From a virus: 23,428 bases of DNA. The notes beneath the pieces were generated by a model that worked only from the letters and a program-made list of their open reading frames with translations, ran no database searches and was not told where the DNA came from. Positions 1,411 through 23,428 of this stretch are shown piece by piece. Each line of letters begins with the position of its first letter. Position 1 is the stretch's first letter. The stretch lies in IMG/VR virus record IMGVR_UViG_3300032284_002041, positions 1-23,428 of that record; one strand, 5' to 3'. A program made the translations under genes and the position numbers.

Positions 1411-1416
1411 TTATAA

Positions 1417-1422
1417 TCTCCC
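1417..1422 (-). promoter_or_regulatory. Shine-Dalgarno site fixing a GTG start
   Basis: On the minus strand this reads GGGAGA, 6 nt before the GTG at 1410. No ATG lies nearby in this frame, and the residues right after the GTG match the N-terminus of the neighbouring fiber, so this site decides the start. Confidence 0.7.
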
Positions 1423-1437
1423 GGATTAATTTTTATA

Positions 1438-3726: not shown

Positions 3727-3734
3727 AGTAATAT

Positions 3735-3740
3735 CTCCTT
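3735..3740 (-). promoter_or_regulatory. Strong Shine-Dalgarno for a GTG start
   Basis: The minus strand reads AAGGAG, 8 nt before the GTG at 3726. This is the strongest ribosome-binding site seen in the left half and supports the GTG start of the 762-residue fiber. Confidence 0.75.
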
Positions 3741-3766
3741 GATGGGTGTTTGTGCTTTAATCTTAT

Positions 3767-3774
3767 TATTTATG
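3767..3774 (-). promoter_or_regulatory. Putative T4-type late promoter (CATAAATA)
   Basis: The minus strand reads CATAAATA, one base from the T4 late -10 octamer TATAAATA and matching the NATAAATA form reported for T4-like cyanophages. It lies in the 64-bp gap between two fiber genes, about 40 nt before the GTG start at 3726. The same octamer occurs in the only other sizeable intergenic gap. The DNA is AT-rich and the octamer also occurs inside genes, so this is suggestive rather than proven. Confidence 0.45.
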
Positions 3775-3790
3775 AAATATAATGTTTGGT

Positions 3791-5071
3791 TTACACTTCA
3801 ATTGTTGTTTTTAAATACTTTAATGTTGTTGAATTATAGATTGGTTGAAATCTTAATTCTACCAATCCTGATCCTGTCCACGATACACGTCCAATCAATA
3901 ATGTTGGATTGCGTGATGTTGTTGATGTTGCATCATAAATGCCGTCTAATGTATTTACAAATGCAGTTGCTAAAGTTATACTAAATGGATTATTTGAGCT
4001 ATCATATACAGTTATTGTTGTACCAACAGGAATGGATAATAGTCCCAAAGCAACAGTAGGATTGTTTGTATAGAATCTAAGATTTGTTACTGTCCATACA
4101 GATACTCCACCAATATTAATATTTGGTGAAGAATAATCGTTTGTTAATGGTGAATAATATGAACTAAAATTACCAAGTGCATCACCAATAGCCCCATATT
4201 CTGTTAGATAAGCATTTGGTTCATCAACTAACAATCTTAATTCTGTTGCTGAGTAATGTAATCCAGAAGTAATTTGCATTTCATATTTTGCACTTCTGTA
4301 TACTGATGTATCAATTGTGTCAAACACAACTTGATTTGTATTTGATGTTGTGTATACGGTTGCGGCTTGTAAAATTCCTGAAGCACCTTGAATACCAGTA
4401 GCACCAGTTTCACCAGTTTCACCGGTTAATCCGGTTGCACCTACACCAGAAGCACCTTGAGTACCGGTGGCACCTGATGCGCCGGTTTGGCCTGTTTGAC
4501 CTGTGGCGCCCGTTAGTCCTGTTTGGCCGGTAGCTCCTTGAACACCTTGAGTTCCTGTTGCTCCTGGTATTGTTGAATCCGCACCTGTAGCACCAGTATG
4601 TCCACTAGCTCCTTGAACGCCAATAGAACCCGTTGCACCAGGTATCGTTGAAGCAGGACCTGTAGCGCCAGTATAACCGGTTGCACCTACACCAGAAGCA
4701 CCTTGAGTACCGGTGGCACCTGATGCGCCTTCGGTGCCTTGTGAGCCAGTGCTGCCGCTTGGACCGGTTATGTTTCCAACATCAATCCATTCAGTACCAC
4801 TCCAAACCCATAAATGTCCTGTGTCATCGGTAATGAAGCCATCACTAATTGCATTAGGATAAGAAGGATCTAATTCAGAAGCTGTTGCTACATGACCAAC
4901 AATTTTAACCGATGTGCCTGCGGGACCTGTAGCACCACTTGCACCCGAAACTCCTGAAATTCCTGAAGCACCAGGAACACCTGAAGCTCCCGTAGCGCCG
5001 GCTCGGCCAATTCCATTTCCGTGTCCATTACCTACTTGTACATTTACTGTACCAATTACTTGACCTGGCAT
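3791..5071 (-). CDS. Collagen-like tail fiber with glycan-binding-like module and elaborated tip
   Basis: 426 residues. The ATG directly abuts the stop of the upstream gene, with a GAGG site 7 nt before it, so translation is probably coupled. Residues 1-23 are a short Gly-rich N-terminus containing VNVQVGNG, and Gly-X-Y triplets follow to about 50. A non-collagen module at about 51-104 ([31 protein letters not shown]) resembles the TG-LWVWDG-W modules common in marine phage fibers. Collagen repeats fill about 105-232, twice interrupted by STIPGATG. The C-terminal tip (233-426) contains [17 protein letters not shown] and LTEYGAIGD and ends [10 protein letters not shown]. It matches the tip of the 762-residue fiber, except for an extra block at roughly 300-390. 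An adsorption fiber role is inferred. The binding target is unknown. Confidence 0.86.
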
Positions 5072-5556: not shown

Positions 5557-8214
5557 TTACTTTTTCTTTAATTCGTCAACTTCAGCTTTAAGTTCTTTAA
5601 TTGCTTCAATTAACAATGGCACTAATTTGTCATATTGAACAGTTAAATAATTTTCACCCGTTTTACTTGTTCCATCATCACCAACGTCAAAAGCAGCTAA
5701 TTTTACGGCTTCTGGTTGTACTTTTTGAACTTCTTGTGCAGATAAACCAACTTGTGTATCTTTTTCATTATATCCAAAATTTGCCGCCAAATCATTTTGT
5801 ACATACAAAAATCCATTAAGTTGATTAACTTTGTCCAAAGCACTTTCGATATTACCAATTTTATTTTTTAAACGGTCATCTGAGTAATATGCAGTAATAT
5901 TATTGTATGAGTATAAAGCGCCACTTGAAGGATTTAAAAACAATAAATCTGTTCCGTATGCATTATTTCCTGAACCCCACAATATTTGATAGTTTGCATT
6001 TGTACGATTACTATAATTAATTGCATAACTTCCTGCATAATTGGCATTTTGAATGGTACCTGAACTTGTTAAGTATCCGGCCGGATTACTAGAATTGTAA
6101 GGAACATATCCTAAAGCTGTTGATATATTTGATGATGTAATACCACTAATATATCCATTTGGATTTGTAGAATTATAAGGAGTAAATCCAAGGTTTGTTA
6201 CAGCTGCACCTGAAGCTAATTGAGCAGCGGAAATTGTTCCGGTTAATTGAGAAGTAGGAATACTTGCAGAAATAGATGTAATATTGGTTACTCTACCCGC
6301 TGAATCTACGGTTACCTGAGGAATAATATTTGCAGCACCAAAAACACCAGGAGATGCGCCAGAATTTGGATGATTAATTGTTAATGTACTTCCAGAAGCC
6401 GTAACTGTTACTAAAGAAGTATTTCCACTTGTAACTGTCAAAGGACCTGGAAGATTTAAGGATCCTGTGCCAGAAGAACCTGCAATCGAAAGTGTTGTTG
6501 ATATTGAGTTATTCGATATAGAAGTTATTCTACCAAATTGGTCTACACTTATTGTTGGAATCGTTGTTGTGTTTCCATAATAACCAGCCGTTGCTCCAGA
6601 AGTTACTGGATTAATTGTTATTGTATTTCCAGAAGCTGCAATTGTGGCAAAAGAAGTTGTATTACTTGAAACTATATTTAAGGGGCCAGGAAGATTTAAT
6701 GAGCCTGTGCCCGAATTACCAGCAAGATTTAATGATGTTGAAATTGAATTATTGCTTGCTGCGGTTATACGACCAGTAGAATCTACAACAAATGAAGGTA
6801 TTTGTAAAGAGCTACCGTAACTTCCAGCTGATACACCTGAAGCTGGTAATCGTGAAGAACTTAATGTCCCTACTGTAATATAAGTAGCATTTGCAGCATT
6901 AGTATTGGCGCCATTAACAGCAGCTGTTAATGTGTTGGTATTTGATGTAATTTGAGATTGCAATGAAATTACATTTGCATCAACATAAGATTTCATACTG
7001 CTATTTGCACTAATAATGCTGTTATTCAATATATTTGCGGCATTTGAAGAAGCTGCTGTCACTTGGCTTGTTGAAATAACAGAATCACTCATCGTTTCTG
7101 TTGTCAAAATACGATAATATGTTGAATTATTAACATCTAACATATCCCAATATTTTTGCGGTTCATTCCAACGGATTGAAGCGTTTGCACCATTTCTATA
7201 AACATTAAAATAACTAATTTGATTATTACTAGAAGCGCTTAATGTAAATGTATTGGTATTATATACTGTTGTTCCATTAATAATAAAATTTCCACCAACA
7301 CTCAGTTGGCCGGTTGTTTGTACTGAGCCAAAAAATGCAGCGGATGAATTACCATTGAGTTGAGTATTAACAATTAAATTTGGTATTATAAGTGACGAAT
7401 TAGCTGTAATGTTATTAGCATAAAGATTGTTTGTGACACTTATTGTTGATGTATTAACTGTTGTATTTGCTTGTAATACATTAACATAAGAAGTTCCAGT
7501 AACACTAGATGTTGCAGTATTTACAGATGTATTTGCCTGCAGTGTGTTTGTAATAGTATCATTGGTAATTGTAGCGCCTAAAATATTTGCTCTAGTGCGA
7601 ACAATTAAATTGTTTGTATTCGATAATCCACCAGCAAAGAAATTATAAGAATTCGTATTGTTTAGAACGGTAGCATTGTTTCCAAATGAAGCATTTTCTG
7701 TAACAACGAGTGTGTTTGCCATTGTTACTGCACCAGTTACAGCTAAAGTGTTGGCCATCGTAGTCGAACCAACAACAGACAACGTATTGCCTAAAGCCGT
7801 TTGTCCGGTAATTGTTGTATTACCAGATACATTTAAATATCCGCCAATTGTTGTATTATTAGAAACAGCAAGACCAATATTTGGACTTAATGCCAACAAA
7901 GGACCACCAATATTAGCTTGGCCGAATGTGGTTATGCTTAAAATAGTATTTTGAAAATATGCTTGTTGGTCAACACGAAGGTTGTTTTGAATATATGCGG
8001 AAGATCCTACACCAGTTACTTGTAATTGTCCAGCAATAATGGCATTGTTAGCAACTTGTAAACCCAAAGTTGGGGAATTTAAAAACAATGTTCCTGTAGG
8101 CTTAATATAATTATTAGCCGCTAAATCATTGTTTTCTTTGGCCAAATTATTGGTCGTAACTACCCAATCACCAAAGGTATTTGCATAACTTAATAAAGAT
8201 ACTGTATTAGCCAT
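5557..8214 (-). CDS. Tail fiber with C-terminal S74 intramolecular chaperone
   Basis: 885 residues. The ATG overlaps the upstream gene by 8 bp and has GAAGG close before it. The N-terminus ([20 protein letters not shown], then LAANNY) is a pattern seen at the start of tail fibers in aquatic T4-like phages. Residues ~100-300 are Asn/Thr-rich short beta repeats. Residues ~459-650 hold two full ~80-residue repeats and the start of a third, marked by VDSTGRIT (477), VDQFGRIT (557) and VDSAGRVT (636), with [11 protein letters not shown] in the first two. Two fiber-type motifs follow, [15 protein letters not shown] and [15 protein letters not shown]. The last ~108 residues are a Peptidase_S74 chaperone beginning [10 protein letters not shown] (S778), with [15 protein letters not shown] and a helical end ([18 protein letters not shown]). 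In this family the domain trimerises the fiber and cleaves itself off before the Ser of the SD motif. Substrate and receptor are unknown. Confidence 0.9.
6277..6840 (-). repeat. ~80-residue tandem repeats in fiber (about 240 bp)
   Basis: Within the 885-residue fiber, VD-x-x-GR-I/V-T motifs recur at residues 477, 557 and 636, spacings of 80 and 79. Each is followed by an Asn/Ser-rich ISxS stretch. The first two also share [11 protein letters not shown] and an ASG-x-T-x-TIN end. The repeats have diverged at DNA level, so they are old structural repeats rather than recent duplications. Confidence 0.7.
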
Positions 8215-8434: not shown

Positions 8435-11400
8435 TTACACCATTGTGTTAATATTTGAAGGAAGAGCAAGAGCTCGCATATTAGACAAAAACGGAACAGC
8501 TGTATTATCTGTTGTTGTTAATACTATCTTAATTGCAAACTGGCTAAATGTAGAATATGTTTGGCCATTAGTGCTTATATAAGAAACATAACCTTGGTCG
8601 GCTCCTCCTGAACCAGGAGCAAAACTATATTCGTGAGTATCTGTTCTTGTTTGTGAGAATAAAGTATCTGAACTATTTGTTTTTGTCATTAACTGCCAAT
8701 TACCATTTTCAAAAGATTGAGTATCACTTCTATTTAAAATTTTATAATAAACATTGATGTCCGTATTAACAGGACGATAAGCAGTAATATAAACATTTAA
8801 GTCACCCGAATCATTTCCAGCATCTAATACAACTTTTTTAGTCACATATTTAGCAATTGCAGGTCCACCAAAAGAAGATGTTTCTCCTGTAATTATTGCA
8901 GAAGCTCCTGAACCCGTACCATCAGTAATTGTAATGGTTGGTGTTGTTATGTAACCAGAACCCGATTGAGTGATATAAATTGATTGGATTACATTAGCAA
9001 CTACATTAGCAGAAGCATACGCTTGTGATCCATTTTTACCGGTTGGTGCTGATAATGTAATTGTTGGTGAATTGGAATAGCTTGTGCCGCCTGACACCAA
9101 AGTAATTAAATTATTTGATAGTTCACAATTATTAATATTCCAAGTAACTGTATAAGTCGTTAAACCAGCATCTGACACAATTGGACTAACGGCTGGATCA
9201 TTTGAACTTAATTGTGTGTATACAGAGAATGAGGTTTCTGAATTGGCATCAAGTATACGTTCACCTTTTCCATCATTTAAATAAATATTATCCGAAGCTG
9301 ATGTTCCATATTTTCCTGGTGTAATTGTTTGCATTCCTGAAGCAAGACCGGATTGTAAAGTTGCATTATAGGTATAACCAATATTTGTTTTGGTTGGAAT
9401 AAAATCTGTTGTTGTAATATTAAAAGCATCTACAAAAATATTTGTATTTGAAATAGAATTAATATTTGAAGATACGTTATTTGCATCTAAGTAATAATTA
9501 ACTGAATCATCAATTAAAGTTCTTTGAGGTAATTTTTTAGGAATTACATATTCAATTGTTGGTGTTACATCAGTATTAAACACACAACGGTCAATTACAA
9601 ATAATAAAGATTGATTTTGATCTGCATTCCAAGTTTGTGCATTTTGTGAAATAAACAAAGCTCCAACATATGGCGCAGAACCAATTTTAGTAATTGTTGT
9701 TGGTGTTATATCGGTTGGAAGATTTTTAACTGAAGAAGGTACAGCAATATCACCATTAGCTGCTGTCCATAAAGTATAAGCACTACTATTTGTTTTAACA
9801 ATAAATGCATATAATACATTAGGTTGTATATAAACAGGAGCATTAAAATCAAATTCAGTATAAGTATTTGAATCCAAATATTGTGGATTTTCAGAAATAT
9901 TAATTGAATTTGGAGTTTTTGTTACAATAGAATGATCTAAAGTAACTCCATTTGGATATCCGTTTAATGTTCCAACAATAGATAATGTAATTGGAGAATT
10001 ATCACTGGCTTTAGTTCTAAAATATAATTTAATTGAATTTAAGAAAATTCCATTTGGATAATTTGCGCCATCAATAATAAATGTTTGTGCAACAGGATCC
10101 CAAGGACTTGTTGTTGTAACTACAGATGTTGTTGTTTGTGAATTTGTTTGAGTAAAAGTATTCTTTGCACCTGCAGGTGAAGCACCAAAATCAACTTGTT
10201 GTGCTTGGGTTTGCAACCCTTCTGCATAATATGTACTTTCGGCATATGTTGTTGATGAAGTTTGATTACCAGAAGTACCATTGTCAATTCTTAATATTCT
10301 TTGTCCTGTATGAAACTTATTTGCTGGTATATTAAATATGCCGTAAAATGATCCATCTTCACTCGAAGAAAATGTTCCAATAGAATACACATCTCCTATA
10401 GAAACATTTATTCCTGAAGATAGATATGCAGTTTGAGTTCCAGCATCATAAGAAGAAATGATTGCAAATTGTCCTACTCCTGTACCGGCACAAATGTATA
10501 TTGTTTGTCCGTTATAACTTTCACCTGAAGCCAACGGCGACAATTTAATTTGTGTAGAGGAGGTTACAGAAATTATTCTTCCACCAAAATGTTTTGTAGA
10601 AGAAATTGTTCCTGTTGCAGTTGTTGTTACATAATTTCCAGACAGATCAAATTGAGCATTTTGGAACGTTCCTGTCGCATGATACGATGAGGTCTCACCA
10701 TCAGCAGCAACATACAATCTTACTTGAGCATTATTAGTATTTGGATAAACATAAACACCAACGACTTTACCAGCCGAAGTGAAATTTGGACTACTATAAT
10801 ATCCAATTACATCATTTTCATTAAAAATACCACTAACATTAATCAATTCGATTACGTTTGTTTTACGAATATAATTATTAACATCAACGTTATCAAAATA
10901 AGAATTTAATACGGAATTAAATAATAGTCCTTGAGATTTAACAACAACTTGTTGTGGTCTAATATAAGGTAATACTGAAACATCAGTAATATATCCATTA
11001 TTTAAAGAATATGTATTACCAATTTTGTCATATGCACCAAGAATATTGTTTTGTGCTTGTGTTGTTACTGTTTGTGTTTGGTGTGTGGCATAACCAACAT
11101 AACCATAAGGACTTGGATTAATATTATGTCCAACAGTATAACTGGTTGATGATGATGAAGTACCGGAAATAGTTTGCCAATCACCGGCCGACAAAACATT
11201 AATTGTTTGTGAATTTGCACGGAATACTTGTAAATTGGGATCAGTAATCAGTAAAGCAGGAGAATAATTTGTATCGACCCAATTATCTACATTTGGAGAT
11301 AAAGAAAGTATTCCTTCTTTTGTTGACGTTGAAAATGGATTAACATTAACTGTTCTTGATGCAAATTTCTGACTTGCCACATTGGCGGTTCCAGAAATTG

Positions 11401-14400
11401 GTAAACTAAAATAATTTACATGGCTGTCTGTATTAATTGCATATCCTAAAGCTTCAGATGTTGAGCTTGAAGGTAATCCCATATTGTAAGCCAAAGCTAA
11501 AGATTTTAATGGAAAATTTCGTACATTTTGCGTTGCAGTCAATTGACGAGTTCTACGATTAATTGTAGCACTATAATCATTATTAAATGTATCGGCTGTT
11601 GCATAACTTGAAAAGTCGTCAACCATAATTCCATTTTTAAAACGATTTAATCCATAAGCATCTGAAATTTGCAAAGATGAAGCACTCTGTTCCAATTGGC
11701 TTAATGATGTGTAGTATTCAACATTATTAATTCGTGTTTCGAGCCCAGCAATATCTTGCATTGTGTATCGTTTATGTTTAACTTTAACGATTGACAGGTC
11801 TGAAACTTGTCCATTTGGAGCTTCGGTTGGAATATAACCAGTATACGGATTATGTGTTAGTTCCGCAACAACTAAAGAGCCATCCGGTTCTGCTGGAAAT
11901 ATTGGATTAATCGAAGGAGTTCCTTCAATTATTTGAAAACTTTTATCTTTAGTCAACACCAATTTATCTTTACGACCAAGATAATAAGAATAATCACCAA
12001 CAAATATTGATAAATCGGTTGGTAAATAAACGCCGTGCTTAGCATCTACTGAATTCGTATAACGGAATGTAAATGTTGAATCGGCATTATTTCTTGTTGG
12101 CCTAAAGTCTAAACAATCACGTAACGCATAAGTTACGCCATGTTTACTGGTGTATTTTGGAATTTGTTGATAATCTTCAGGTAAAGAAGAAACACCAGTG
12201 TGAATATAAGACATCACACTAAAATATCCGTCACCACCAACGTGCTGATAATAATTAACAAATACCAAAAGATTACCGCCTGGTTGTGGTGCACCAGGTT
12301 TTAAACTAATAGTTGCATGGTCATAATAATTATCTTTTTGGCCATTATCAAAAATATAATTATTTGTAACATCCGTATAAGAAGCTAAATTTGCAGTTGT
12401 TGGAATAATACCATTGGAACGAGTATCTAAAATTTTAACAATGTTCTTAACATCAGACAAATATAAACTTTGTGCGGATCCAGCTGGCACAAGGCCAGCT
12501 TTCTGAATATAGATTTGACCTGTTGAAGTTAATGACGAATCATCAACAAAAGTATAAGTATTAACTTGTGTACCAGAAGTATATGCAATGTTTGTATTTG
12601 CATTAATTAAATTTTTGCCTTTTAATATATGACCAACATTATCGGCATTCGCAACAAATACCTTAGCAACAATATTTGCAGTAAACGGCAATAAGTCAGA
12701 TGCAGTAAAAGTGGCGATAGAAGAATCGGTATCAAGAGAAACTGTTCTTTGAACAGTTGTCCAAGGAACAATATCTCCAACTTTAATTAAAGTATTTGAT
12801 CCAGCATTTGTAACAACAATTGTATAATTTTGTTTAACGATATCAGAAGATAATGTTGAGTTTGGAGCGCCAAAATGTCTAACAATGTCAGTAAAGTCTC
12901 CTTCATAATTTAACTGTGCTGATACGCCTCCACCAGAAGCCGTAAAAGAAATGCTTCTGAATAGTTGTTGTGTTGTATATGATGTAGAACTTAATGAAGA
13001 AACATATGGACTTCCAATATTAAATAATAATTCTGGAACTGTTGGATTTTCTAAAATTGTGTCGCCTGTTGAAATTCCATTAATTCTGCTTTCTGAATTA
13101 ATATTGGCTTTAGCTTGAACTGTGGCCGGATAAGAAGTTTTATTTGTTGCAAAAATTGTTTCAATATCTGTAATATCAAAATTTAAAGCAAATATTGATG
13201 AAGTATCTGGTGTTACTGTCCAATTTTGATTTACTGTTGCTGTGTGTGTCGACCCGTTATATGCAGTAATTGTTCTAAAATCTCCCGCATCGGTACCAGT
13301 ATTAATGGAAATATTAACTCCAACATAAGCATTATTTGCTTTTGAAAAATATGTTGGAAATTGAATGGTATTTAAAGTAGCAGAAACAACATTAGCCGTT
13401 TGTGTAGCATTTTGCAAATCGGAAACATATGCTTTATACACATACGTATTTGCATCAGTATCGTTGCTATTATGGTCGTACACCAAACCACGAATGTAAC
13501 CAGAAGAAACCAAAGTAGAACTATATGCAGAAGATGTTGAAGTGTTTACATTGGCGGTATCTACGCAATGCAAATCAATAGTTTGATATGTGGTTGTATC
13601 AAAGAAAGATCCATTCGCTCCGTGCACGGTATCAACATAAAAATAAGAACCAAAGTCCATAAAAACTGGATTATTATTTTGTGTTTCTGATGTTCTTGCT
13701 CGATTTGTTATAATATCAACACCGGCTTGACTTTCAACACGATATCCGTGAACATAAGCAACGCCTTTACCAATAGACATTGTGTATGTTGATTCATTTG
13801 TTAAATTTGCTTTTGGAGTTAATTTAAAATCATTAACAATATAATCACCATTAGTTTCATAATCTCTTTTTGCAAAATAATCATCAATAACATTATAAAC
13901 AGAACCATCAACCATTTTGGAGATGTTTCCATTTTCAATTCTAACCAATTCAATAAATCCGTCATCATCACCAAAAGTTAATGGTCTGGTTTGTAATTCC
14001 AAAGAAATTTTATAACGGTCGGCTCCTGGTGCTTGATAATTTGAAGCTCCAATTGCTGGATCGAGCAAAGTGGGATCATTTACATAATCGTATATGGTTT
14101 CAGAAATATTTAAACCAATTCTTTTGCTTGGTATATTTCCGTAAACATCTAAAACAATTGTGTATGGATTAACTTGTACAAAATTTCCTGATGAAATGGT
14201 AATTCCATCGGTTCTTTTATAATTTCCTGAAATGTAAAAAACGCCTTGAGCGATTGAAGCAACTGAACTTGATCCTGTTGCATTTAATAAAATTGCTTGA
14301 GCCGCTAAATTTGATGAAGAATCATAGATAATATTATTATCGGAAAATTGAATTCCTGTTTTGTATGACACTATCAATGTGTTTGGTTCACCGGTGACAG

Positions 14401-14740
14401 ATGAAGTCGAAACGGCAACAACTTGAGCAATAATTGTTCCGGTTGAATTTTGAACGGTTTTATCTTTAAATCCGGTTACATCATAAGATGAACCCAAATA
14501 CGTATCTTGTAATTTAATATAATGACAATTTAAATTTACTGTTACTTGGCCGCCGGTTACAGGTGAATTTTGTTTAAAAATATTATCTGCAAATTTGGTT
14601 ATTTGGTCTTGTAAAATTGTTTGAGATTGAGTAAGTTCTCTTGCCTGTACAGCCGCACCTGGCTTAAACAATATACGATGGTAATTCTTTGTAGGATCAA
14701 AGTCATCGTAGTATGGTTTAATGTTAAAATTCAGAGACAT
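8435..14740 (-). CDS. Giant DUF4815-type baseplate/fiber structural protein
   Basis: 2101 residues, ATG start with an AAGGAAT site just upstream. The N-terminus (IKPYYDDFDPTKNYHRILFK, then PGAAVQARELTQSQ and DQITKFADNIFKQ) is the DUF4815 signature found in T4-like phages of aquatic bacteria. The middle contains DCLDFRPTRN and an acidic, beta-rich body. Around 1545-1720 there is a module with SPWDPVAQTF, GIFLNSIKLYF, NGYPNG, PNVLYAFIV and SQNAQTWNADQNQSLLF that recurs in these proteins. Near 1884-1953 two GxGY-type glycine-rich beta repeats occur (GGTSYSNSPTITL, GSGYITTPTITITDGTGSGA). The gene follows gp8 by 9 nt and sits where T4 has genes 9-10, so a peripheral wedge or fiber-attachment role is inferred. 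The molecular function is unproven. The protein is much larger than T4 gp10 (about 600 residues). Confidence 0.85.
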   Translation of the reverse strand: MSLNFNIKPYYDDFDPTKNYHRILFKPGAAVQARELTQSQTILQDQITKFADNIFKQNSPVTGGQVTVNLNCHYIKLQDTYLGSSYDVTGFKDKTVQNSTGTIIAQVVAVSTSSVTGEPNTLIVSYKTGIQFSDNNIIYDSSSNLAAQAILLNATGSSSVASIAQGVFYISGNYKRTDGITISSGNFVQVNPYTIVLDVYGNIPSKRIGLNISETIYDYVNDPTLLDPAIGASNYQAPGADRYKISLELQTRPLTFGDDDGFIELVRIENGNISKMVDGSVYNVIDDYFAKRDYETNGDYIVNDFKLTPKANLTNESTYTMSIGKGVAYVHGYRVESQAGVDIITNRARTSETQNNNPVFMDFGSYFYVDTVHGANGSFFDTTTYQTIDLHCVDTANVNTSTSSAYSSTLVSSGYIRGLVYDHNSNDTDANTYVYKAYVSDLQNATQTANVVSATLNTIQFPTYFSKANNAYVGVNISINTGTDAGDFRTITAYNGSTHTATVNQNWTVTPDTSSIFALNFDITDIETIFATNKTSYPATVQAKANINSESRINGISTGDTILENPTVPELLFNIGSPYVSSLSSTSYTTQQLFRSISFTASGGGVSAQLNYEGDFTDIVRHFGAPNSTLSSDIVKQNYTIVVTNAGSNTLIKVGDIVPWTTVQRTVSLDTDSSIATFTASDLLPFTANIVAKVFVANADNVGHILKGKNLINANTNIAYTSGTQVNTYTFVDDSSLTSTGQIYIQKAGLVPAGSAQSLYLSDVKNIVKILDTRSNGIIPTTANLASYTDVTNNYIFDNGQKDNYYDHATISLKPGAPQPGGNLLVFVNYYQHVGGDGYFSVMSYIHTGVSSLPEDYQQIPKYTSKHGVTYALRDCLDFRPTRNNADSTFTFRYTNSVDAKHGVYLPTDLSIFVGDYSYYLGRKDKLVLTKDKSFQIIEGTPSINPIFPAEPDGSLVVAELTHNPYTGYIPTEAPNGQVSDLSIVKVKHKRYTMQDIAGLETRINNVEYYTSLSQLEQSASSLQISDAYGLNRFKNGIMVDDFSSYATADTFNNDYSATINRRTRQLTATQNVRNFPLKSLALAYNMGLPSSSTSEALGYAINTDSHVNYFSLPISGTANVASQKFASRTVNVNPFSTSTKEGILSLSPNVDNWVDTNYSPALLITDPNLQVFRANSQTINVLSAGDWQTISGTSSSSTSYTVGHNINPSPYGYVGYATHQTQTVTTQAQNNILGAYDKIGNTYSLNNGYITDVSVLPYIRPQQVVVKSQGLLFNSVLNSYFDNVDVNNYIRKTNVIELINVSGIFNENDVIGYYSSPNFTSAGKVVGVYVYPNTNNAQVRLYVAADGETSSYHATGTFQNAQFDLSGNYVTTTATGTISSTKHFGGRIISVTSSTQIKLSPLASGESYNGQTIYICAGTGVGQFAIISSYDAGTQTAYLSSGINVSIGDVYSIGTFSSSEDGSFYGIFNIPANKFHTGQRILRIDNGTSGNQTSSTTYAESTYYAEGLQTQAQQVDFGASPAGAKNTFTQTNSQTTTSVVTTTSPWDPVAQTFIIDGANYPNGIFLNSIKLYFRTKASDNSPITLSIVGTLNGYPNGVTLDHSIVTKTPNSINISENPQYLDSNTYTEFDFNAPVYIQPNVLYAFIVKTNSSAYTLWTAANGDIAVPSSVKNLPTDITPTTITKIGSAPYVGALFISQNAQTWNADQNQSLLFVIDRCVFNTDVTPTIEYVIPKKLPQRTLIDDSVNYYLDANNVSSNINSISNTNIFVDAFNITTTDFIPTKTNIGYTYNATLQSGLASGMQTITPGKYGTSASDNIYLNDGKGERILDANSETSFSVYTQLSSNDPAVSPIVSDAGLTTYTVTWNINNCELSNNLITLVSGGTSYSNSPTITLSAPTGKNGSQAYASANVVANVIQSIYITQSGSGYITTPTITITDGTGSGASAIITGETSSFGGPAIAKYVTKKVVLDAGNDSGDLNVYITAYRPVNTDINVYYKILNRSDTQSFENGNWQLMTKTNSSDTLFSQTRTDTHEYSFAPGSGGADQGYVSYISTNGQTYSTFSQFAIKIVLTTTDNTAVPFLSNMRALALPSNINTMV

Positions 14741-14749
14741 TTTATTCCT

Positions 14750-16126
14750 TTAATTATATCTTAATACAAATTTAAATTGTTCTATTCCGTCAACACTTCT
14801 TTCGACACCGGTTCTATTTTCTATATATGCCAAATAACCTGATGGGACAAAATCTGGATAATTAACGCTTAGCAGCGTTCTTGCTGTTTTTGAAACACTT
14901 CCAAGGACTGGGTAATTTAATGTTGGAGTTCCTTGTATATTTATTAACTTAACCACATTGCTAGCAGGATCAAAACTAAGAATTGTTGCAGAAAATATTT
15001 TGTTTCCACTTGCATCATTTTGATAAGCAATTTCGTCACTAATATATTCTCCAAAACCAGAAGCAACAACTAAATCAGTAGATGCTCCGTAAATATCTCC
15101 ATTAGCGGTATAAGCGGTACCATCAATATAATTACTTTTCGTAGTAGGATTAAATATCAATCCGATTTGTCTATATGTAATGTCGGTTGGAATATATCCA
15201 TTTTCATTACCAGTAAATGTTGAGGTAAGCATAACCCGAGAAACGCCTAATTCAGACACAGGGTCAAATGCGTGGCCACCCATAGGAGAAATAGGAGCAA
15301 TAGCGGAGGCGTTTGTTCCAAGGTCTGATATGATGGTTACGTTAGCTGTTGTATAATTCGTTCCTGCATTGTCTACAACAATATTGGTAATATTACCATC
15401 AGAAGTAATGGCATGAGCAGCTGCACCGGTACCATCACCATCGATGGTAATTGTAATAGTTGCATTGGCTTGGTCATATCCACTACCCCCATCCACCACA
15501 TTAATTACCTCAATATCTCCATATCCAGCAGCTGAAGATATGGGATTGGGAGTATTTGCTCCAACAGGTACAGGAATCCAATTAATATCCATAAATTTGG
15601 TTTTTAATCCCAAATCAATTGAATACATATATTTCCATTTATATCCATCGGAACCAATAAAAATATTATTTGTTCCGTATGATCCAGGTTCAAAATAAGG
15701 TTCAGCCGTTGAAGGTTCGCCATTATTATTCCATAAACATTTAAAAATTTGTTCGTATTTGTTTTTTACATAAAATTTACGTACAAAAGTTCCATCTAAA
15801 TTTTCTTCAAACATATTAACATCATCACGATAAAAATCATATGTTGTATTTTCTGTCCAGTCAATTCTTTCTGTTACTGGAGATATATCTGTGGTTTTAA
15901 CTTGTTTGGCCACAAAGATGCTTTTAAATACTTTTTTAAAATATTTTTGATCTTCCGTTGGAGTCGGAGGAGATGTTTCATTTTCCCAAGGATCAATGTG
16001 TGCTAAAAAACAATAAATTGTACTAATAGATTGAGAAATTGGTGGAGGAATAACAGCAACTGGAGCAAAATAAAGTTGTTCAACTTGAGCAACCGATGAT
16101 GCATGTGTTAAAAGATTAGTATTCAT
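14750..16126 (-). CDS. 8: Baseplate wedge subunit gp8
   Basis: 458 residues, against about 334 in T4. The N-terminal half carries the gp8 pattern: IYCFLAHIDPWENETSPPTP (37-56), RIDWTENTTYDFYR (87-100), FVRKFYVKNKYEQIFKCLWN (114-133), GEPSTAEPYF and GSDGYKWKYMYSI (158-170). The C-terminal half has MGGHAFDPVSELG (282-294), TYRQIGLIFNP and VDGIEQFKFVLRYN at the end. An inserted glycine-rich beta module fills about 203-280 (GGSGYDQANATITI, then GDGTGAAAHA) and explains much of the extra length. In T4, gp8 dimerises and bridges gp7, gp10 and gp6 in each wedge. The start has no recognisable Shine-Dalgarno, only A/T runs, which is unusual here. The gene lies 12 nt after the gp7-like gene. Confidence 0.9.
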   Translation of the reverse strand: MNTNLLTHASSVAQVEQLYFAPVAVIPPPISQSISTIYCFLAHIDPWENETSPPTPTEDQKYFKKVFKSIFVAKQVKTTDISPVTERIDWTENTTYDFYRDDVNMFEENLDGTFVRKFYVKNKYEQIFKCLWNNNGEPSTAEPYFEPGSYGTNNIFIGSDGYKWKYMYSIDLGLKTKFMDINWIPVPVGANTPNPISSAAGYGDIEVINVVDGGSGYDQANATITITIDGDGTGAAAHAITSDGNITNIVVDNAGTNYTTANVTIISDLGTNASAIAPISPMGGHAFDPVSELGVSRVMLTSTFTGNENGYIPTDITYRQIGLIFNPTTKSNYIDGTAYTANGDIYGASTDLVVASGFGEYISDEIAYQNDASGNKIFSATILSFDPASNVVKLINIQGTPTLNYPVLGSVSKTARTLLSVNYPDFVPSGYLAYIENRTGVERSVDGIEQFKFVLRYN

Positions 16127-16138
16127 ATTTTTATTTTA

Positions 16139-18940
16139 TTAATTTATTAGTCCAAAAATTTTAACGTCTGTTGCATAAACATTTCGTTTAACAGACATTA
16201 AAGAATTTATATTATTGGATAATGGTGAATCTAAAGTTAAAATTCCATTATCATAATCAATATCTATTACTGTTTTTATTTCATCATTCTGAATAAATTT
16301 AATTTGGTCTTCAACATAAACAATAGAATTTAAAGCGCCAGCGGATCGATATTCTAGTGGTAAAAATGGCTGAACCCAATATGGATATCCGTTATTGTTA
16401 TAAATTCCATTATTAATAATATTGTAATTACCAGTCAATTCTGATATATTTATGGAGTAATCTCCAGTATTTCCTGTTACAATAGCAACATTTGGTATTG
16501 TTAACCAAGTACTATCTTTTAATGTTATTGTATTGTTTGCATCATCAACTGAAACAACTTCTGAAGAAACTTGTTCATCGTTTGTTGTTACAATTGAAAA
16601 TGTGTTTCCTGGATATACAAAATCACTTAAATTATTAAAATCATTACCATAAATTTGCACGACATTTGCGCTAAGATTTGTCCAATCCGAAGTCATAGTT
16701 GCATAAGCATCAATATTTGAAGTATAATAAGCTAATGTATGAGCTTTGTATAATGATATTGAACTATCAACTTTAAATTCGGATTGTGATTTTAATACAT
16801 ATTTTCCAAGAACTTTTAATCCTGTTGGATGTAATAAATCCAATAAAATTTTTCTATATTTTGCAATTTCTTTTTCTACTATAATTTCATAAGTGTAATT
16901 ATTATAATTTTCACTTTGAAGAACATCAAAAGCGCTTAATTGGCCAGTAGAATCTAAATATTTTCCTTCACTTATAACCAGACCATTCAAAAATTTAGCA
17001 CCTGCTTCGGCTGTACCGTCACCATATGTTATAACGCCAGAAGAATTATATCTAGAATTTTTATTTATTGTTGTATATTCATTCGACATATTCATTATAA
17101 TATCTTTAGAATAAACATTAATTGGTAATGAAAAATTTAATATAGAACTATAATTATATACCCTAAGCTTCCAAAGAGATTGTAATGGATCTCCATTGCT
17201 CACCAAAGTATCAATTGAATCGACTGTTGCAATATATGACGCACTATTTAAAGAACTTCCTTGGTAAATAATATCGCCTTTGTTTGGTAAATTTCCAACC
17301 AATAAATTTGAAACAACAATGTCTTGTACTTTTAAAGAAATATTAGGTGTTGAAATATAATCTTCGCCATAATCAGTAACATTAATATCAATAATTGATC
17401 CAACTCGGTCCACAACCACACCAAAATTTGCACCTTGGCCAAGAATTCCAGAAACGTATAAATTTGCACCTGTAGCTTCTGTATTTGCTGAATTTACTGT
17501 AAGTGTTGGCAAATTACTTGTTCGATGTCCTAATCCACCTAAAGGATAATGGTGTGGAATATCTGGATTAGGATAAACATATTTAACAGCCAAAATTTGG
17601 CCATCAGCATCAACCGAAGTTACGTTTGCATATACTCCATATCCTGAACCGCCAATAATATTGATAGTATCATTTTCAAGATATCCTGTACCACCCGAAG
17701 CAATTTGAATAGGTGCTAAAATTCCTAAATTTTTTAAATAACCAATTGAAACACCGTCTTGTGTATTATATGTTGTTTCTGCTGTAACGATTGGTGTTTT
17801 CGATATTCCTCCTCCACCATTTTCAACTAAAATTGAAGAAATAGGATAAGTTTGAAAAGATAAAAAAGAAAAAGCGTTGCTTAATGTTGTATTTGCATCT
17901 GAAACCATAACATTAGCAAAATTATAATTTGCGGCTCCAATTGAAATTCCTGTATAACTTCCGCCGGCAGTTTTTGAACCAATGCGGTCACTAGGAATAA
18001 ATGTAACGTTTGCAGTATTTGCTGAACTAGGATCCAAACTTCCAATAATTGCAATGGCACCACTTGCATTTGTAATATTAATAGCGGTATTTTGTGTATA
18101 TCCAAATCCACCATTTAAAACCGAAATTCTTTGTATAGATCCTGATGTGGTTGTTTTAATTGTTGCTGCAGCTCCGTGGCCGTTATTTGAATTTAAACCA
18201 CCATAAACAACAACAGGATCTCCAGGCAAATACAACAATCCTCTATTGCTTGGATTAACATTAATTTGAGAAATTTGTCCTACAATTTTTGCTTCTAATG
18301 TTTTTCCTTCAAAAAGAATAGGTTGATTATTGGAATCAACCACTCTAATAATTTCTCCGGACTGAAACAATCTTTCAATGTCTGAAATAAAAACTTCAAT
18401 TTTAGAACCTACAAGTAAAACATTTTCAATTGTAGCAATCGATTTTGTAGTTAAACCAAAAACCCTAAATGATCCATTTTTATTGGTTAATGTTAACCAT
18501 TTTTTATCAGTTGAATCTAATTTTAAACTCTTTGCAATATACCATTTACCCGAAGAAGCTTTTAATACCGCATCTTTTGTGTAAAAGAAATCAACATCCG
18601 AATTATAAAGTAATCTAAAAAGAAATTTATATGATGACGGAGTTCCTTTTGATTGATATAATTGTTTTGCTAACTTAACAACTTTCTGTTTATCAGCCAA
18701 AATGTCTTTTGGAAAATAAGAAAGAAAATCATTGTAAAAATAATCTAAAAATTCTTCAGACGTTTTATCTACATCTTTATAATCTAAAAGATTTTTTGTT
18801 CTATCGATTACATTATTGTTTTGTTCCAACCATTCATAATAAGCTTGTAAAAATAATACAAATTTGTCGTAAGAGGGGTCATCCCGAATAAATTCAGGAA
18901 GTTGTGATGGAATTAATAATGATGTTTTTTGGTCTATCAT
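16139..18940 (-). CDS. 7: Baseplate wedge protein, gp7-like
   Basis: 933 residues, against about 1032 in T4 gp7. The ATG overlaps the gp6 stop by 4 bp (ATGA), a translational-coupling arrangement, and no clear Shine-Dalgarno is present. The N-terminus is helical (LPEFIRDDPSYDKFVLFLQA then YYEWLEQ; DYFYNDFLSYFPKDI; LYQSKGTPSSYKFLFRLLYN), as in gp7-type wedge proteins of marine T4-like phages. Several glycine-rich GxGY beta modules lie between about 257 and 540 (NGGFGY, GGTGYLENDTINI, DYGEDYISTPNISL). A helical segment at 648-715 (FLNGLVISEGKYLD, LQSENYNNYTYEI, KYRKILLDLLHPTGLKVLG) is a recognisable family block. In T4, gp7 is the wedge initiator that contacts gp8, gp10 and gp53. Assignment as gp7 rests on position between gp6 and gp8 and on these motifs. 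Confidence 0.78.
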   Translation of the reverse strand: MIDQKTSLLIPSQLPEFIRDDPSYDKFVLFLQAYYEWLEQNNNVIDRTKNLLDYKDVDKTSEEFLDYFYNDFLSYFPKDILADKQKVVKLAKQLYQSKGTPSSYKFLFRLLYNSDVDFFYTKDAVLKASSGKWYIAKSLKLDSTDKKWLTLTNKNGSFRVFGLTTKSIATIENVLLVGSKIEVFISDIERLFQSGEIIRVVDSNNQPILFEGKTLEAKIVGQISQINVNPSNRGLLYLPGDPVVVYGGLNSNNGHGAAATIKTTTSGSIQRISVLNGGFGYTQNTAINITNASGAIAIIGSLDPSSANTANVTFIPSDRIGSKTAGGSYTGISIGAANYNFANVMVSDANTTLSNAFSFLSFQTYPISSILVENGGGGISKTPIVTAETTYNTQDGVSIGYLKNLGILAPIQIASGGTGYLENDTINIIGGSGYGVYANVTSVDADGQILAVKYVYPNPDIPHHYPLGGLGHRTSNLPTLTVNSANTEATGANLYVSGILGQGANFGVVVDRVGSIIDINVTDYGEDYISTPNISLKVQDIVVSNLLVGNLPNKGDIIYQGSSLNSASYIATVDSIDTLVSNGDPLQSLWKLRVYNYSSILNFSLPINVYSKDIIMNMSNEYTTINKNSRYNSSGVITYGDGTAEAGAKFLNGLVISEGKYLDSTGQLSAFDVLQSENYNNYTYEIIVEKEIAKYRKILLDLLHPTGLKVLGKYVLKSQSEFKVDSSISLYKAHTLAYYTSNIDAYATMTSDWTNLSANVVQIYGNDFNNLSDFVYPGNTFSIVTTNDEQVSSEVVSVDDANNTITLKDSTWLTIPNVAIVTGNTGDYSINISELTGNYNIINNGIYNNNGYPYWVQPFLPLEYRSAGALNSIVYVEDQIKFIQNDEIKTVIDIDYDNGILTLDSPLSNNINSLMSVKRNVYATDVKIFGLIN

Positions 18941-21021
18941 GACGATTTGGATATTACATTAACAACAATAGAAGTTGAATCGAATGGATCAACCGTAATA
19001 ATTCTATTATATGATGAAGAAATAATTGAAGTTGTTGGATTTGTTGTAATTGTTAATTGTCCTAATTCATTATTAACATCATATGGATTAAATGCATTTA
19101 AAGCAACAATTCCATTAATATAATCAATTGTTCCAATATTTGAATTAAAAATAGTTTTTATTGAAGAGTTATTTGTATTATTATAATAACTTCTTAATGT
19201 TCCATATCGTCCAGCTAAATTAACAACGGCTGCACCTAAAGAACCTGTGGTGTCCGATGAATCATTTGTTATAATTGCGATTGCACTGGTATATCCTGTA
19301 CCTGGAGTATCAACAACAATTTCATTAATTCTTCCGTTAACAATTACGGCATGTGCCGTTGCGCCAGTACCATCACCTTTAATAGTAATTTTTGGTGTGG
19401 CAGTATATGAAAATCCAGGATTGATTATTGATAAAGATTCAACAGTATTTGTTGATGATGGAACTTCTTCAAGGTATATACCATCAATAGTGTTTTCTAA
19501 ATTGGTCGTATCTTTAAATTTTAAAGAAGGTGAACTACTTACACCACTTAATAAAATTCCTTTTTCTAAAGAAGTACCATAATATAAGTTATATGATGTT
19601 GTATTTAATAAATTAGGCAAGAATTTTTTCTGCAACTGAATTTTATAATTACTCGAAACAATAGAAGAACTGTAATTTTGAATTGCAGTTAACATATCAT
19701 AAGCACTAAAAGTTGAATTAAAAGTATTTAAAGAACTATTGGCAAATGATTGAATTGCGGCTTTTACTCCATTTTCAATTTGTTGTGCCGTTTGAGTAGT
19801 TTTATTTGGATTGTAAACCACATCTATTGTTAATTTTAAATATGTGTAATCTGGATCAATAATTGTTGGAGTGACAGTTAGTACAGAAATTGGTTTAATT
19901 ACATCTTCAATAATTTTTTGTTTTTGTGTTGTTGTTAAATTATAACTACCTTGTGGCTTTAATGAAATGAATACTTGACCATATACGGGCGGATCGTTTT
20001 CTTCTCCACCCCAAACATTGACGGCATCAAAAGCAATATCTAATTTGTTTTGTTGAATTGCTGTAATGTAATCTTCTTTGGTTACAGCACGACTTTGTGC
20101 TGCATAAGATTTAGGTGCTTGAAATTTAACAGAAGTAATACTTTCTCTGTTACCGCCTTGAGTGGCTGAAGTTAATGGATTTAATGTATAATTTGAATAA
20201 CCAGAAATTGGATCCATCAATACAAAATTGTTTGCTCCAGCGGCCGCAGATCCTTGTGTAACAACATAAGATAATATAACAATGTTGCCATCAGAAAGTT
20301 TATTACCTAAAATTCCATCACCAAAATAAACTTGGTAATTATTGTTCAATCCTTCTTGTAGAAAATATACTTTAGAATCATTTTGTAGAGTCAAATAATT
20401 TGAGGCCAATGTATAAACTTCACTACTACTGTTTGAAGAAGATTGTTGCACAACAACCGTTAAAGTTGTAGTATCTACATTTTGATCAGGAATTTCAAAC
20501 GTATAAGATGGATTTGCACCAGAATCTACTGTAAATGAAACTGTTGCAGGAATACCTTGTTTTAAAACCACACTTTCAAACATGGCTGTATTTGCAGAAA
20601 CGTTAACTGTTTGTGTATCGGCGGAAACAAAATTATAGTTAATTCCATCAATTGCTTCAGACATAAATGTGGTAAATTTAGGTAATGTCAAAGATGCATC
20701 TGTAACACCATTCACAGTTAAATTGATTGTTGCTCGTGGAGCAATAGAAGATTTGGGTACATAATCTAATAACTTTGCCTGAGATACCACAGAACCTCGT
20801 TGAATAGCAGTATCTAAAAACATTTCATTTGCAACTTGATTCAAATAGTAAGCATTGTATTGTGTGTTGTAGGAAAGAATATCTAAAAGAACAGAAAGTG
20901 CAGAACCTTCATAATTATAATCTTTTAATATATCTTGAGATTGTAAAAACGTTTTTAAGTTGGTTTTAATTGTATTAAAATCCAAATCGGTCATTTGAAT
21001 ATTTGAATTAGCGCCTGCCAT
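18937..21021 (-). CDS. 6: Baseplate wedge subunit gp6 (baseplate J-like)
   Basis: 694 residues (T4 gp6 about 660). The start ATG lies 1 nt after the gp25 stop. The helical N-terminus has LDFNTIKTNLKTFLQSQDIL, then YEGSALSVLLDILSYNTQY and NAYYLNQVANEMFLDTA, typical of gp6 and its P2 J-like core. The beta region has VYFGDGILGNKLSDGN (231-246). The conserved block APKSYAAQSRAVTKEDYITA lies at about 302-321, followed by VNVWGGEENDPPVYGQVFIS. At ~526-605 a glycine-rich GxGY module is inserted near the C-terminus (NPGFSYTATPKITIKGDGTG, then GTGYTSA). In T4 two copies per wedge form the inner iris ring holding the wedges together around the hub. Only a weak ribosome-binding site is visible, so coupling to gp25 is likely. 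Confidence 0.93.
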   Translation of the reverse strand: MAGANSNIQMTDLDFNTIKTNLKTFLQSQDILKDYNYEGSALSVLLDILSYNTQYNAYYLNQVANEMFLDTAIQRGSVVSQAKLLDYVPKSSIAPRATINLTVNGVTDASLTLPKFTTFMSEAIDGINYNFVSADTQTVNVSANTAMFESVVLKQGIPATVSFTVDSGANPSYTFEIPDQNVDTTTLTVVVQQSSSNSSSEVYTLASNYLTLQNDSKVYFLQEGLNNNYQVYFGDGILGNKLSDGNIVILSYVVTQGSAAAGANNFVLMDPISGYSNYTLNPLTSATQGGNRESITSVKFQAPKSYAAQSRAVTKEDYITAIQQNKLDIAFDAVNVWGGEENDPPVYGQVFISLKPQGSYNLTTTQKQKIIEDVIKPISVLTVTPTIIDPDYTYLKLTIDVVYNPNKTTQTAQQIENGVKAAIQSFANSSLNTFNSTFSAYDMLTAIQNYSSSIVSSNYKIQLQKKFLPNLLNTTSYNLYYGTSLEKGILLSGVSSSPSLKFKDTTNLENTIDGIYLEEVPSSTNTVESLSIINPGFSYTATPKITIKGDGTGATAHAVIVNGRINEIVVDTPGTGYTSAIAIITNDSSDTTGSLGAAVVNLAGRYGTLRSYYNNTNNSSIKTIFNSNIGTIDYINGIVALNAFNPYDVNNELGQLTITTNPTTSIISSSYNRIITVDPFDSTSIVVNVISKSS

Positions 21022-21418: not shown

Positions 21419-23428
21419 TTATTTATCTCCATTTTTGAGAACTATGCTTTCCAATACTTCAATTCTTTTTTGTTGCTCTTTAATAATTTCAATAAAAAAG
21501 CCAGATAATGCATTATAATTAACAGATTTTTTACCTTCTGAATCTGTACCAACAATTTCTGGAATATACTCTTCAACCTCTTGAGCCACAACTCCATATG
21601 ATTTAAGGCCTGTACCTGTCCAAATATACTCAACACCTCTTAAATTTTGAAGCTTTGCAAAAGCACTCTGTATCGTTTCAATGTTTGTTTTATATCTATT
21701 ATCAGATAAAGAATTAAATATAGTTGCAGCTAAAGTGCCTGTAGATGGATTATAGTTTAATTTACTATCAGAAGTATAAATTGCAGATACATTTCCTGTT
21801 GTGACATTTGAAAATAATGGATAAACAGTTTGATTTGTTGATGTATCGTTTGTTAATTTAATAGTCGTTTGATTGGTGGATATTGTTAATTCTTGTGGAT
21901 TAGCAGAATGATTTGTGGTAAGTTGAATTCCTGATCCAGCAATAACATGCAAGGTATCTTCGCCTTGAGCAACCAAACTGGTTTGACCATCCACTTCAAT
22001 GGTTCTAAATGAACTACCCAAACTTACTTTAACTTCTCCACTACCTAAATCATCTACATGAAATCCCGTATCAGTATCAAATAAGAGTGTACTTATATTG
22101 TTGACTTGATTTGTAATTGTTCCGGTTGCACCACCTGTAGCACCACTCACCGAACCAACATTTAAGTTTGTGACGCCAACACCCGTAGCACCAGTAAGTC
22201 CTGTAGCTCCAATACCTGAAGCACCTTGAATGCCGGTAGCACCGGTAGCACCAGTATAACCTGTGGCACCAGAAGCACCTTGTACACCCACATTTGTAAA
22301 CACTTTCCATGTAGTGCCGTCATAAACGGATGTGAGTAGAATTCCACTTATATCAAGAATTAAATCATCAGTAAGACCTTGAATCGTGGATCCGTTACCA
22401 TTGATTGTTAAATTGTTTGTGCTCCAAGCTTGACCACTATCAGCAAAACTTATACTATATCCCAATGAAGGAGATGCGGGTAATGTAATTGTAAATGAAC
22501 CACTGGAAGTATCGGCAGCAATAGCATCTTTGTTACCAGCGGTATAATTTGATGTTTTTACTATCCAATTTTGTAAAATACCGGTAGCACCAACAAAACC
22601 GGTTAAACCAGAAGCACCTTGTATACCCTGAATTCCGGTAGCACCAGTTAAACCGGTTAAACCAGAAGCACCTTGTATACCCTGAATTCCGGTAGCGCCA
22701 GTAAGTCCTGTTGAACCAGAAGCACCTTGAATGCCGGTAGCACCGGTAGCACCAATATAACCTGTGGCACCACTAGCTCCTCGAACCCCGGTGGCACCAG
22801 TAAGTCCTGTTGAACCAGAAGCACCTTGAATGCCGGTAGCACCGGTAGCACCAATATAACCTGTGGCACCACTAGCTCCTGGAACCCCGGTGGCACCAGT
22901 AAGTCCTGTTGAACCAGAAGCACCTTGTATACCCTGAATTCCGGTAGCACCGGTGTAACCTGTGGCGCCTGTTGCACCAGTAAGTCCGCTTGCTCCAAAT
23001 ATTCCTGTAGAACCTGAAGCACCTTGTACACCACTCGATCCTTGTATTCCTTGAACACCGGTAGCTCCTGTAAGTCCTGTAGATCCGCTAGCGCCTTGTA
23101 TGCCTTGAATACCAGTAGCACCTGTAAATCCTGTAGCACCAAAATCACCTTGTATACCTTGAACACCGGTAGCGCCAGTAAGTCCTGTCGAACCACTAGC
23201 GCCTTGTATACCAGTAGCACCTTGAACTCCTTGTGGTCCTTGAATACCTGTTGCGCCAGTAAGTCCTGTCGAACCACTAGCGCCTTGTATACCAGTAGCA
23301 CCTTGAACTCCTTGTGGTCCTTGAATACCTGTTGCGCCAGTTGATCCTGTATATCCTGTTGCACCAATAAAGCCGGTTGCGCCAGTTGATCCTGTATATC
23401 CTGTTGCACCAATAAAGCCGGTTGCGCC
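21419..23428 (-). CDS. Collagen-like fiber with S74 chaperone, N-terminus beyond window
   Basis: 669 residues are visible and the frame is open to the right edge. An internal TTG at 22463-22465 is not the start, because the same frame continues unbroken upstream through a beta domain into collagen repeats. In order: Gly-X-Y shaft (about 22580-23428, GATG/GASG-rich, with tandem DNA repeats), a beta knob (about 22290-22580, with [36 protein letters not shown] and YDGTTWKVF), a short second collagen stretch (about 22160-22290), a beta head, and a C-terminal S74 chaperone starting [10 protein letters not shown] (Ser codon 21704-21706) with [15 protein letters not shown] and a terminal helix [17 protein letters not shown]. 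Family knowledge: the S74 domain trimerises the fiber and self-cleaves at the SD motif. The fiber sits just upstream of gp25, away from the other fiber genes. The missing N-terminus would show how it attaches. Confidence 0.9.
22701..22925 (-). repeat. 99-bp tandem repeat, two full copies plus a partial
   Basis: The units 22701-22799 and 22800-22898 differ at one noticed base, which turns GVRG into GVPG in the protein. A third partial copy runs from 22899 to about 22925. Each unit encodes 33 residues (11 Gly-X-Y triplets), so copy changes keep frame and collagen register. Confidence 0.85.
23172..23333 (-). repeat. 81-bp tandem repeat, two identical copies
   Basis: The units 23172-23252 and 23253-23333 appear identical. 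Each encodes 27 residues (9 Gly-X-Y triplets) of the collagen shaft. Identity at synonymous positions indicates a recent duplication. Confidence 0.85.
23334..23428 (-). repeat. 45-bp tandem repeat at the window edge
   Basis: The units 23334-23378 and 23379-23423 are identical, and the first five bases of a third follow at 23424-23428 where the window ends. Each encodes 15 residues (5 Gly-X-Y triplets). The array may continue beyond the edge. Confidence 0.85.

Follow-up and report, generated by a model that had tools for sequence, protein, structure and literature searches.

Baseplate genes and copies of the module

The 23.4-kb virus record analysed here (IMG/VR record IMGVR_UViG_3300032284_002041; "the window" below means this whole stretch of 23,428 nucleotides) contains a block of baseplate genes read on the minus strand in the order gp25, gp6, gp7-like, gp8, DUF4815/VrlC and fibre genes, the same baseplate gene order being found in Pelagibacter phage HTVC008M. 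Four neighbouring genes of this block, gp6, gp7-like, gp8 and DUF4815/VrlC, carry copies of what we call the GxGY module, a stretch of about 80 amino acids (aa) made of two units of about 38 aa, the consensus of the unit profile being IQSINVTNGGSGYTSNPTITITAGGDGTGATANAVVVN.

All carrier and module coordinates that follow are on the minus strand. The gp6 product (18937..21021, 694 aa) is a baseplate wedge protein of phrog_219 that matches the helical and C-terminal domains of the T4 gp6 family in Pfam (PF21379, 9e-17; PF21871, 9.5e-8), and its model aligns in VIA with T4 gp6 (5iv5_B; Z 22.9, 509 residues, root-mean-square deviation (rmsd) 7.3), which makes it a member of that family. The gp8 product (14750..16126, 458 aa; phrog_438), also a baseplate wedge protein, likewise belongs with T4 gp8 (VIA match to 1n7z, Z 20.4, 268 residues of a 328-residue chain, rmsd 3.4). 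Between them lies a gp7-like wedge protein (16139..18940, 933 aa) matching phrog_26741 and phrog_17744, and the fourth carrier is a baseplate protein of DUF4815/VrlC type (8435..14740, 2101 aa; PF16075 DUF4815, 9e-58; phrog_358).

Complete two-unit modules are found in gp6 (aa 525-606, 19204..19449, with units at aa 528-562 and 565-601 scoring 48.6 and 37.6 bits), in gp8 (aa 203-284, 15275..15520, units at aa 205-242 and 246-280, 48.1 and 30.6 bits) and near the C-terminus of DUF4815/VrlC (aa 1877-1955, 8876..9112, the unit matches spanning aa 1879-1951 with 26.8 and 31.1 bits). The gp7-like protein has one unit at aa 269-301 (18038..18136; 37.4 bits, 7.8e-13), where profiles of the gp6 and gp8 modules match too, another at aa 410-443 (17612..17713; 33.0 bits, 1.9e-11) and a weak, degenerate remnant at aa 518-535 (17336..17389; 6.1 bits, 0.0047). 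A first-pass annotation of the window had reported the same module in these four proteins near these positions, and unit matches do occur in all four; the "several copies" it saw in the gp7-like protein are two good units and degenerate ones, not paired modules as in gp6 and gp8.

Homology of the copies

Smith-Waterman comparison of gp6 with gp8 gives a z-score of 11.9 over shuffles, and pairs involving the gp7-like protein and DUF4815 score more weakly (z 2-6, with gp6 against gp7-like at 2.2). These weak pairs are settled by leave-one-gene-out profiles, trained on relatives of gp6, gp8 or another single carrier, with E-values referring to a set of 8 proteins. The gp6 profile recovers gp8 (3.6e-17), DUF4815 (8e-9) and gp7-like (4e-6), the gp8 profile recovers gp6 (8e-14), DUF4815 (5e-9) and gp7-like (7e-7), and the gp7 and DUF4815 profiles recover both gp6 and gp8, more weakly. 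None of these profiles significantly matches the collagen-like or fibre proteins, so that the resemblance goes beyond the glycine richness noted at first pass. Among 2,955 open reading frames (ORFs) from related loci, the unit profile finds some 930 copies; reversed sequence, run as a control, yields 7, all with low scores. The G and Y at the key positions do not vary across 20-25 diverse copies. The copies in the four baseplate genes are members of one homologous module family.

In predicted structure the module is ordered. The AlphaFold model of gp8 has a pLDDT (predicted local distance difference test) of 93 overall and 95-97 in the module, that of gp6 84 overall and mostly 78-91 in the module. 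The gp6 module is modelled as six strands, three per unit (aa 526-534, 544-549 and 552-561; 564-575, 580-585 and 597-603), and sits between strands 511-519 and 608-614 of the C-terminal domain. As gp6 and gp8 otherwise keep their T4 folds (Z of about 23 and 20), the module appears as an addition to both. In the VIA search with the gp6 model no listed match was confined to the module, which is not evidence of absence.

The module as an insert

Gene by gene, phages related to the window differ in which proteins carry the module. In gp6, both units are present in all 75 close relatives of the window type and in none of 85 proteins of the pelagiphage type, nor was the module found in cyanophage gp6 or in that of T2, the proteins compared being those of P-SSM4, ACG-2014i, Cr30, Moby and T2. 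The insertion point, as judged by eye on the alignment, MAFFT placing the gap less neatly, is a beta-hairpin; it reads 'YFLNDDG-GNVRLYY' in the pelagiphage proteins and 'IYLEEVPSST-[module]-GRYGTLRSYY' in the window. Relative to T4, the gp6 module is a clean insert. In DUF4815 the module is found in 62 of 69 window-type relatives versus 1 of 49 of the pelagiphage type; these counts include some proteins cut short where a contig stops, and part of the misses reflect split genes. Such a split into two ORFs is seen in some relatives (L232:411-8017, for example), with the module in the second ORF.

The distribution is broader for the other two carriers. The G, GDG and Y positions of the gp8 module vary little or not at all in window-type and pelagiphage-type gp8, the module is present in gp8 of Moby and Cr30, and residues 191-311 of gp8 (120 residues) correspond to about 47 residues in T2 gp8. 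Units occur in gp7-type proteins of both clades (88/91 and 55/56). The whole genome of T2, a T4-type phage, has no module match at E 1e-3, which bears out the earlier statement that T4 gp6 and gp8 lack the insert; with host proteins otherwise T4-like in predicted structure, the copies are not ancestral parts of the T4 folds. From these distributions the gain of the module looks older in gp8 and gp7, later in gp6 and recent in DUF4815. The "parallel insertion" proposed at first pass was thus the right sort of process, but the insertions seem to be ancient and to differ in age, those in gp7 and gp8 preceding those in gp6 and DUF4815.

In a tree of module sequences, based on a short alignment and with modest support, copies group by host gene: 25 sampled gp6 modules and that of the window form one clade (support 0.79), and the window copies fall with their own genes. 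The module also diverges at a rate similar to that of its host protein (conservation of 63.0 vs 63.8% for gp6 and 56.9 vs 60.1% for gp8). Gene conversion between gp6 and gp8 copies within a genome was considered and left no signal, module similarity being 115.9 within and 116.0 between genomes (p 0.52). Given the clustering by host gene and this lack of co-variation within genomes, the spread of the module lies far back, and its copies are now passed on with their host genes. The close likeness of GDGTGATAHA in gp6 to GDGTGAAAHA in gp8 is, on these comparisons, no sign of recent copying.

Carriers beyond the baseplate

The module is not restricted to wedge proteins and has been built repeatedly into virion proteins of unrelated phages. 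It is found in 17 PHROGs, including wedge, hub (gp5), tail fibre, neck gp14 and giant structural proteins, and in searches of 15 whole related records it lies mostly in large structural-type ORFs. P-SSM4 has it at 21 places, many of them in its 7,312-aa gp7 (L085:9145-31083), which contains about ten units. Three window relatives (L362, L363 and L364) encode a 288-292-aa 'SSWGNNDNAANAPYWAV' protein, starting MSSWGNNDNAANAPYWAV, with a module at aa ~73-135 and no Pfam match. Stenotrophomonas phage Moby has a module in its tail sheath, at aa 240-319 (1e-13), and modules are also present in the sheaths of Pseudomonas phages Persinger and PPpW-3.

Bacterial and archaeal contigs were scanned with a generic family consensus, a probe of our own composition, which found 138 relatives; 80 loci were kept and 79 of these were confirmed by the unit profile. 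Ten contig ORFs were checked, comprising three sheaths (two rhizobial, one from Nostoc), two tail-tube proteins, one capsid cement protein, two candidate spikes resembling beta-helix/pectate-lyase proteins and two DUF2589 proteins. In the cement protein and in one of the tube proteins, matches to the host family flank the module, which is therefore an insert there too. The two DUF2589 proteins, on Kordia and Kribbia contigs (L381 and L421), have an inserted module in a cellular or unrecognised phage context. A genome scan with a gp6-type consensus gave no match and no module was matched in plasmids; the generic consensus gave none against phage records by tblastn either, probably owing to the low-complexity filter, while a natural sheath-module query did match. 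The description of a spreading module holds, as it is inserted in, and common to, structural proteins of the wedge, hub, neck, sheath, tube, cement and spike.

Comparison with known domains

No significant model for the module was found in Pfam or NCBIfam. By sequence, the PDB gave one marginal match (tailspike 28lx/8ck1, residues 430-525, E 0.054) and none with the unit profile, and no paper describing the module turned up in a search of the open literature. The nearest parallel in behaviour is that of the phage immunoglobulin-like (Ig-like)/Big domains, which are also small beta-domains and turn up in tail and head proteins that are otherwise unrelated; the module shares their promiscuous insertion, as its 17 PHROGs and its sheath, tube, cement and spike-like carriers show. 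Unlike them it is built of GxGY units, and when 20 module members were compared with Ig-like family models one gave Big_12 at 0.08 and there was no other match, none being above threshold. The profiles of the gp8 family (phrog_438) and of cyanophage gp14 'head closure Hc2' (phrog_460) include the module, but as families of host proteins, which have only the module in common with gp6, gp7 and DUF4815. That tail and baseplate proteins have domains in common is a general phenomenon, described as mosaicism (PMC10684548), the GxGY module going unmentioned in the parts of that article consulted.

The gp7-like gene of HTVC008M (L003:8436-11486) carries the label 'head closure Hc2' in its record, despite its position between gp6 and gp8. 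This label is probably an annotation error arising from the module held in common with phrog_460.

Several observations point to domain I of the T4 sheath protein gp18 (PF22639, PDB 3FOA) as a relative. Both have six strands and about 80-90 aa (~90 in domain I) and sit as an insertion within a different domain of their tail protein, and VIA aligns gp8 206-279 with T4 gp18 99-186 (Z 5.8, 71 residues, rmsd 2.8), a score below Z 8. The GSNYAVGD motif of domain I is in register with the GxGY motif; domain I of T2 gp18 reads 'ISTPGSNYAVGDKITV' and is ranked first among 43 T2 ORFs by all four module profiles, with weak scores. Profile matches run both ways: a domain I profile built from 11 phages and run on the 2,955 ORFs has gp7-type proteins as all of its 30 best matches, and 23 of these fall on GxGY units, where six reversed or shuffled control profiles give 0-1. 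The unit at aa 410-443 of the gp7-like protein is the one matched in relatives. By hmmscan, T2 gp18 100-146 also matches phrog_26741 (E 8e-4), one of the families of the gp7-like protein itself.

Other results count against this relationship. The gp7-type matches come from related proteins and so are not independent, Z 5.8 could alone reflect a common arrangement of strands, hhalign gives the module and domain I a probability of 7-37%, and in a Pfam comparison at E 1 none of the 20 module members used matches PF22639. Domain I differs further in being a single diverged copy with an alpha-helix, located in the sheath and not in the wedge. We nevertheless consider it quite likely, from lines of evidence that are weak but convergent, that the GxGY module and gp18 domain I are distant homologues, the module not being filed in PF22639.

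Possible role of the module

In T4, gp18 domain I forms a barrel of six strands that lies within domain II as an insertion and protrudes from the sheath without making sheath-sheath contacts; it binds the long tail fibres in their retracted state as well as the baseplate, and retraction of the fibres is inhibited by point mutations in this domain (PMC3004832). Ig-like domains, as discussed for sheaths, are dispensable and thought to bind cell-surface carbohydrate weakly (PMC9230969). Taken together, the range of carriers, the insertion, the absence from sister phages and the gp18 parallel make service as an outward accessory surface the most likely role of the module. On balance it is reasonably probable that the module is a promiscuous domain decorating the virion surface, with gp18 domain I as a distant homologue and wedge copies that bind weakly. 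Decoration had been suggested at first pass, and the occurrence of the module in proteins of the sheath, tube, neck, spike and capsid cement makes it the reading that fits best; exposure and binding of the wedge copies would follow from the same comparisons. Such a small beta-domain of two three-strand units would be inserted in loops or added at the ends of virion proteins. In the T4-like lineage of the window, gp7 and gp8 would have gained it early and gp6 and DUF4815/VrlC later, descent with the host gene following. By analogy with gp18 domain I, the wedge copies would most likely provide weak, replaceable contacts to fibres, to cell-surface glycan or to neighbouring fibre proteins, and would not primarily hold the wedge together. 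One point that weighs against this role is that the C-terminal region of gp6 forms inter-wedge dimers in T4 (PMC3004832), where a structural role is possible.

The main alternative is that the module is a structural spacer or stabiliser that stiffens or lengthens its host proteins or fills gaps between subunits, with no ligand outside. It has been suggested that extra domains of the sheath serve to cement the tail (PMC9230969), and the conservation of the module is close to that of the host protein, unlike that of a fast-evolving receptor-binding patch. We find this unlikely, since sister phages lack the gp6 module and their baseplates must work without it, and since gp18 domain I, should it be a homologue, takes no part in sheath-sheath contacts (PMC3004832).

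Still less probable is that like-with-like contacts between modules join gp6, gp7 and gp8 and brace the wedge, as the first-pass annotation had also proposed. In T4, gp7 and gp8 form a platform under gp6 (PMC3004832), and all three carry the module here. Phages of the pelagiphage type, however, have it in gp8 and gp7 and never in gp6 (0/85), gp6-gp8 similarity is equal within and between genomes, and the same module is found in sheath, tube, cement and spike proteins, all of which speaks against such pairing. Finally, convergence of glycine-rich beta repeats that are not one family, with which the glycine/threonine-rich, partly low-complexity sequence and the near-shuffle score of gp6 against gp7-like would agree, is hardly credible given the leave-one-out profiles, the reversed-sequence control, the invariant G and Y positions and the ordered predicted fold.

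Returning to surface decoration, a broader version, which we put forward only tentatively, is that the module may represent a second widespread class of virion decoration beside the Ig-like domains, extending over baseplate, sheath, tube, neck, cement and spike proteins in contractile as well as non-contractile phages and into cellular proteins, with gp18 domain I as its best-known, though unrecognised, member and wedge copies that serve as additional docking sites for fibres or host glycan. A recurrent beta-domain of phage virions that has no Pfam or NCBIfam model is thereby named and tentatively tied to a solved structure, and gp6 of the window clade and of pelagiphages provides natural pairs with and without the module for testing its role.

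Flanking genes

Several collagen-like repeat proteins (GATGATG/GASG) are encoded on the same strand on either side of the baseplate genes (window 1-5071 and 21419-23428), and none is matched by the GxGY profile. The collagen-like protein at 21419-23428 and an 885-aa fibre protein (5557-8214) have ends resembling what we take to be intramolecular chaperone domains of the S74 type.

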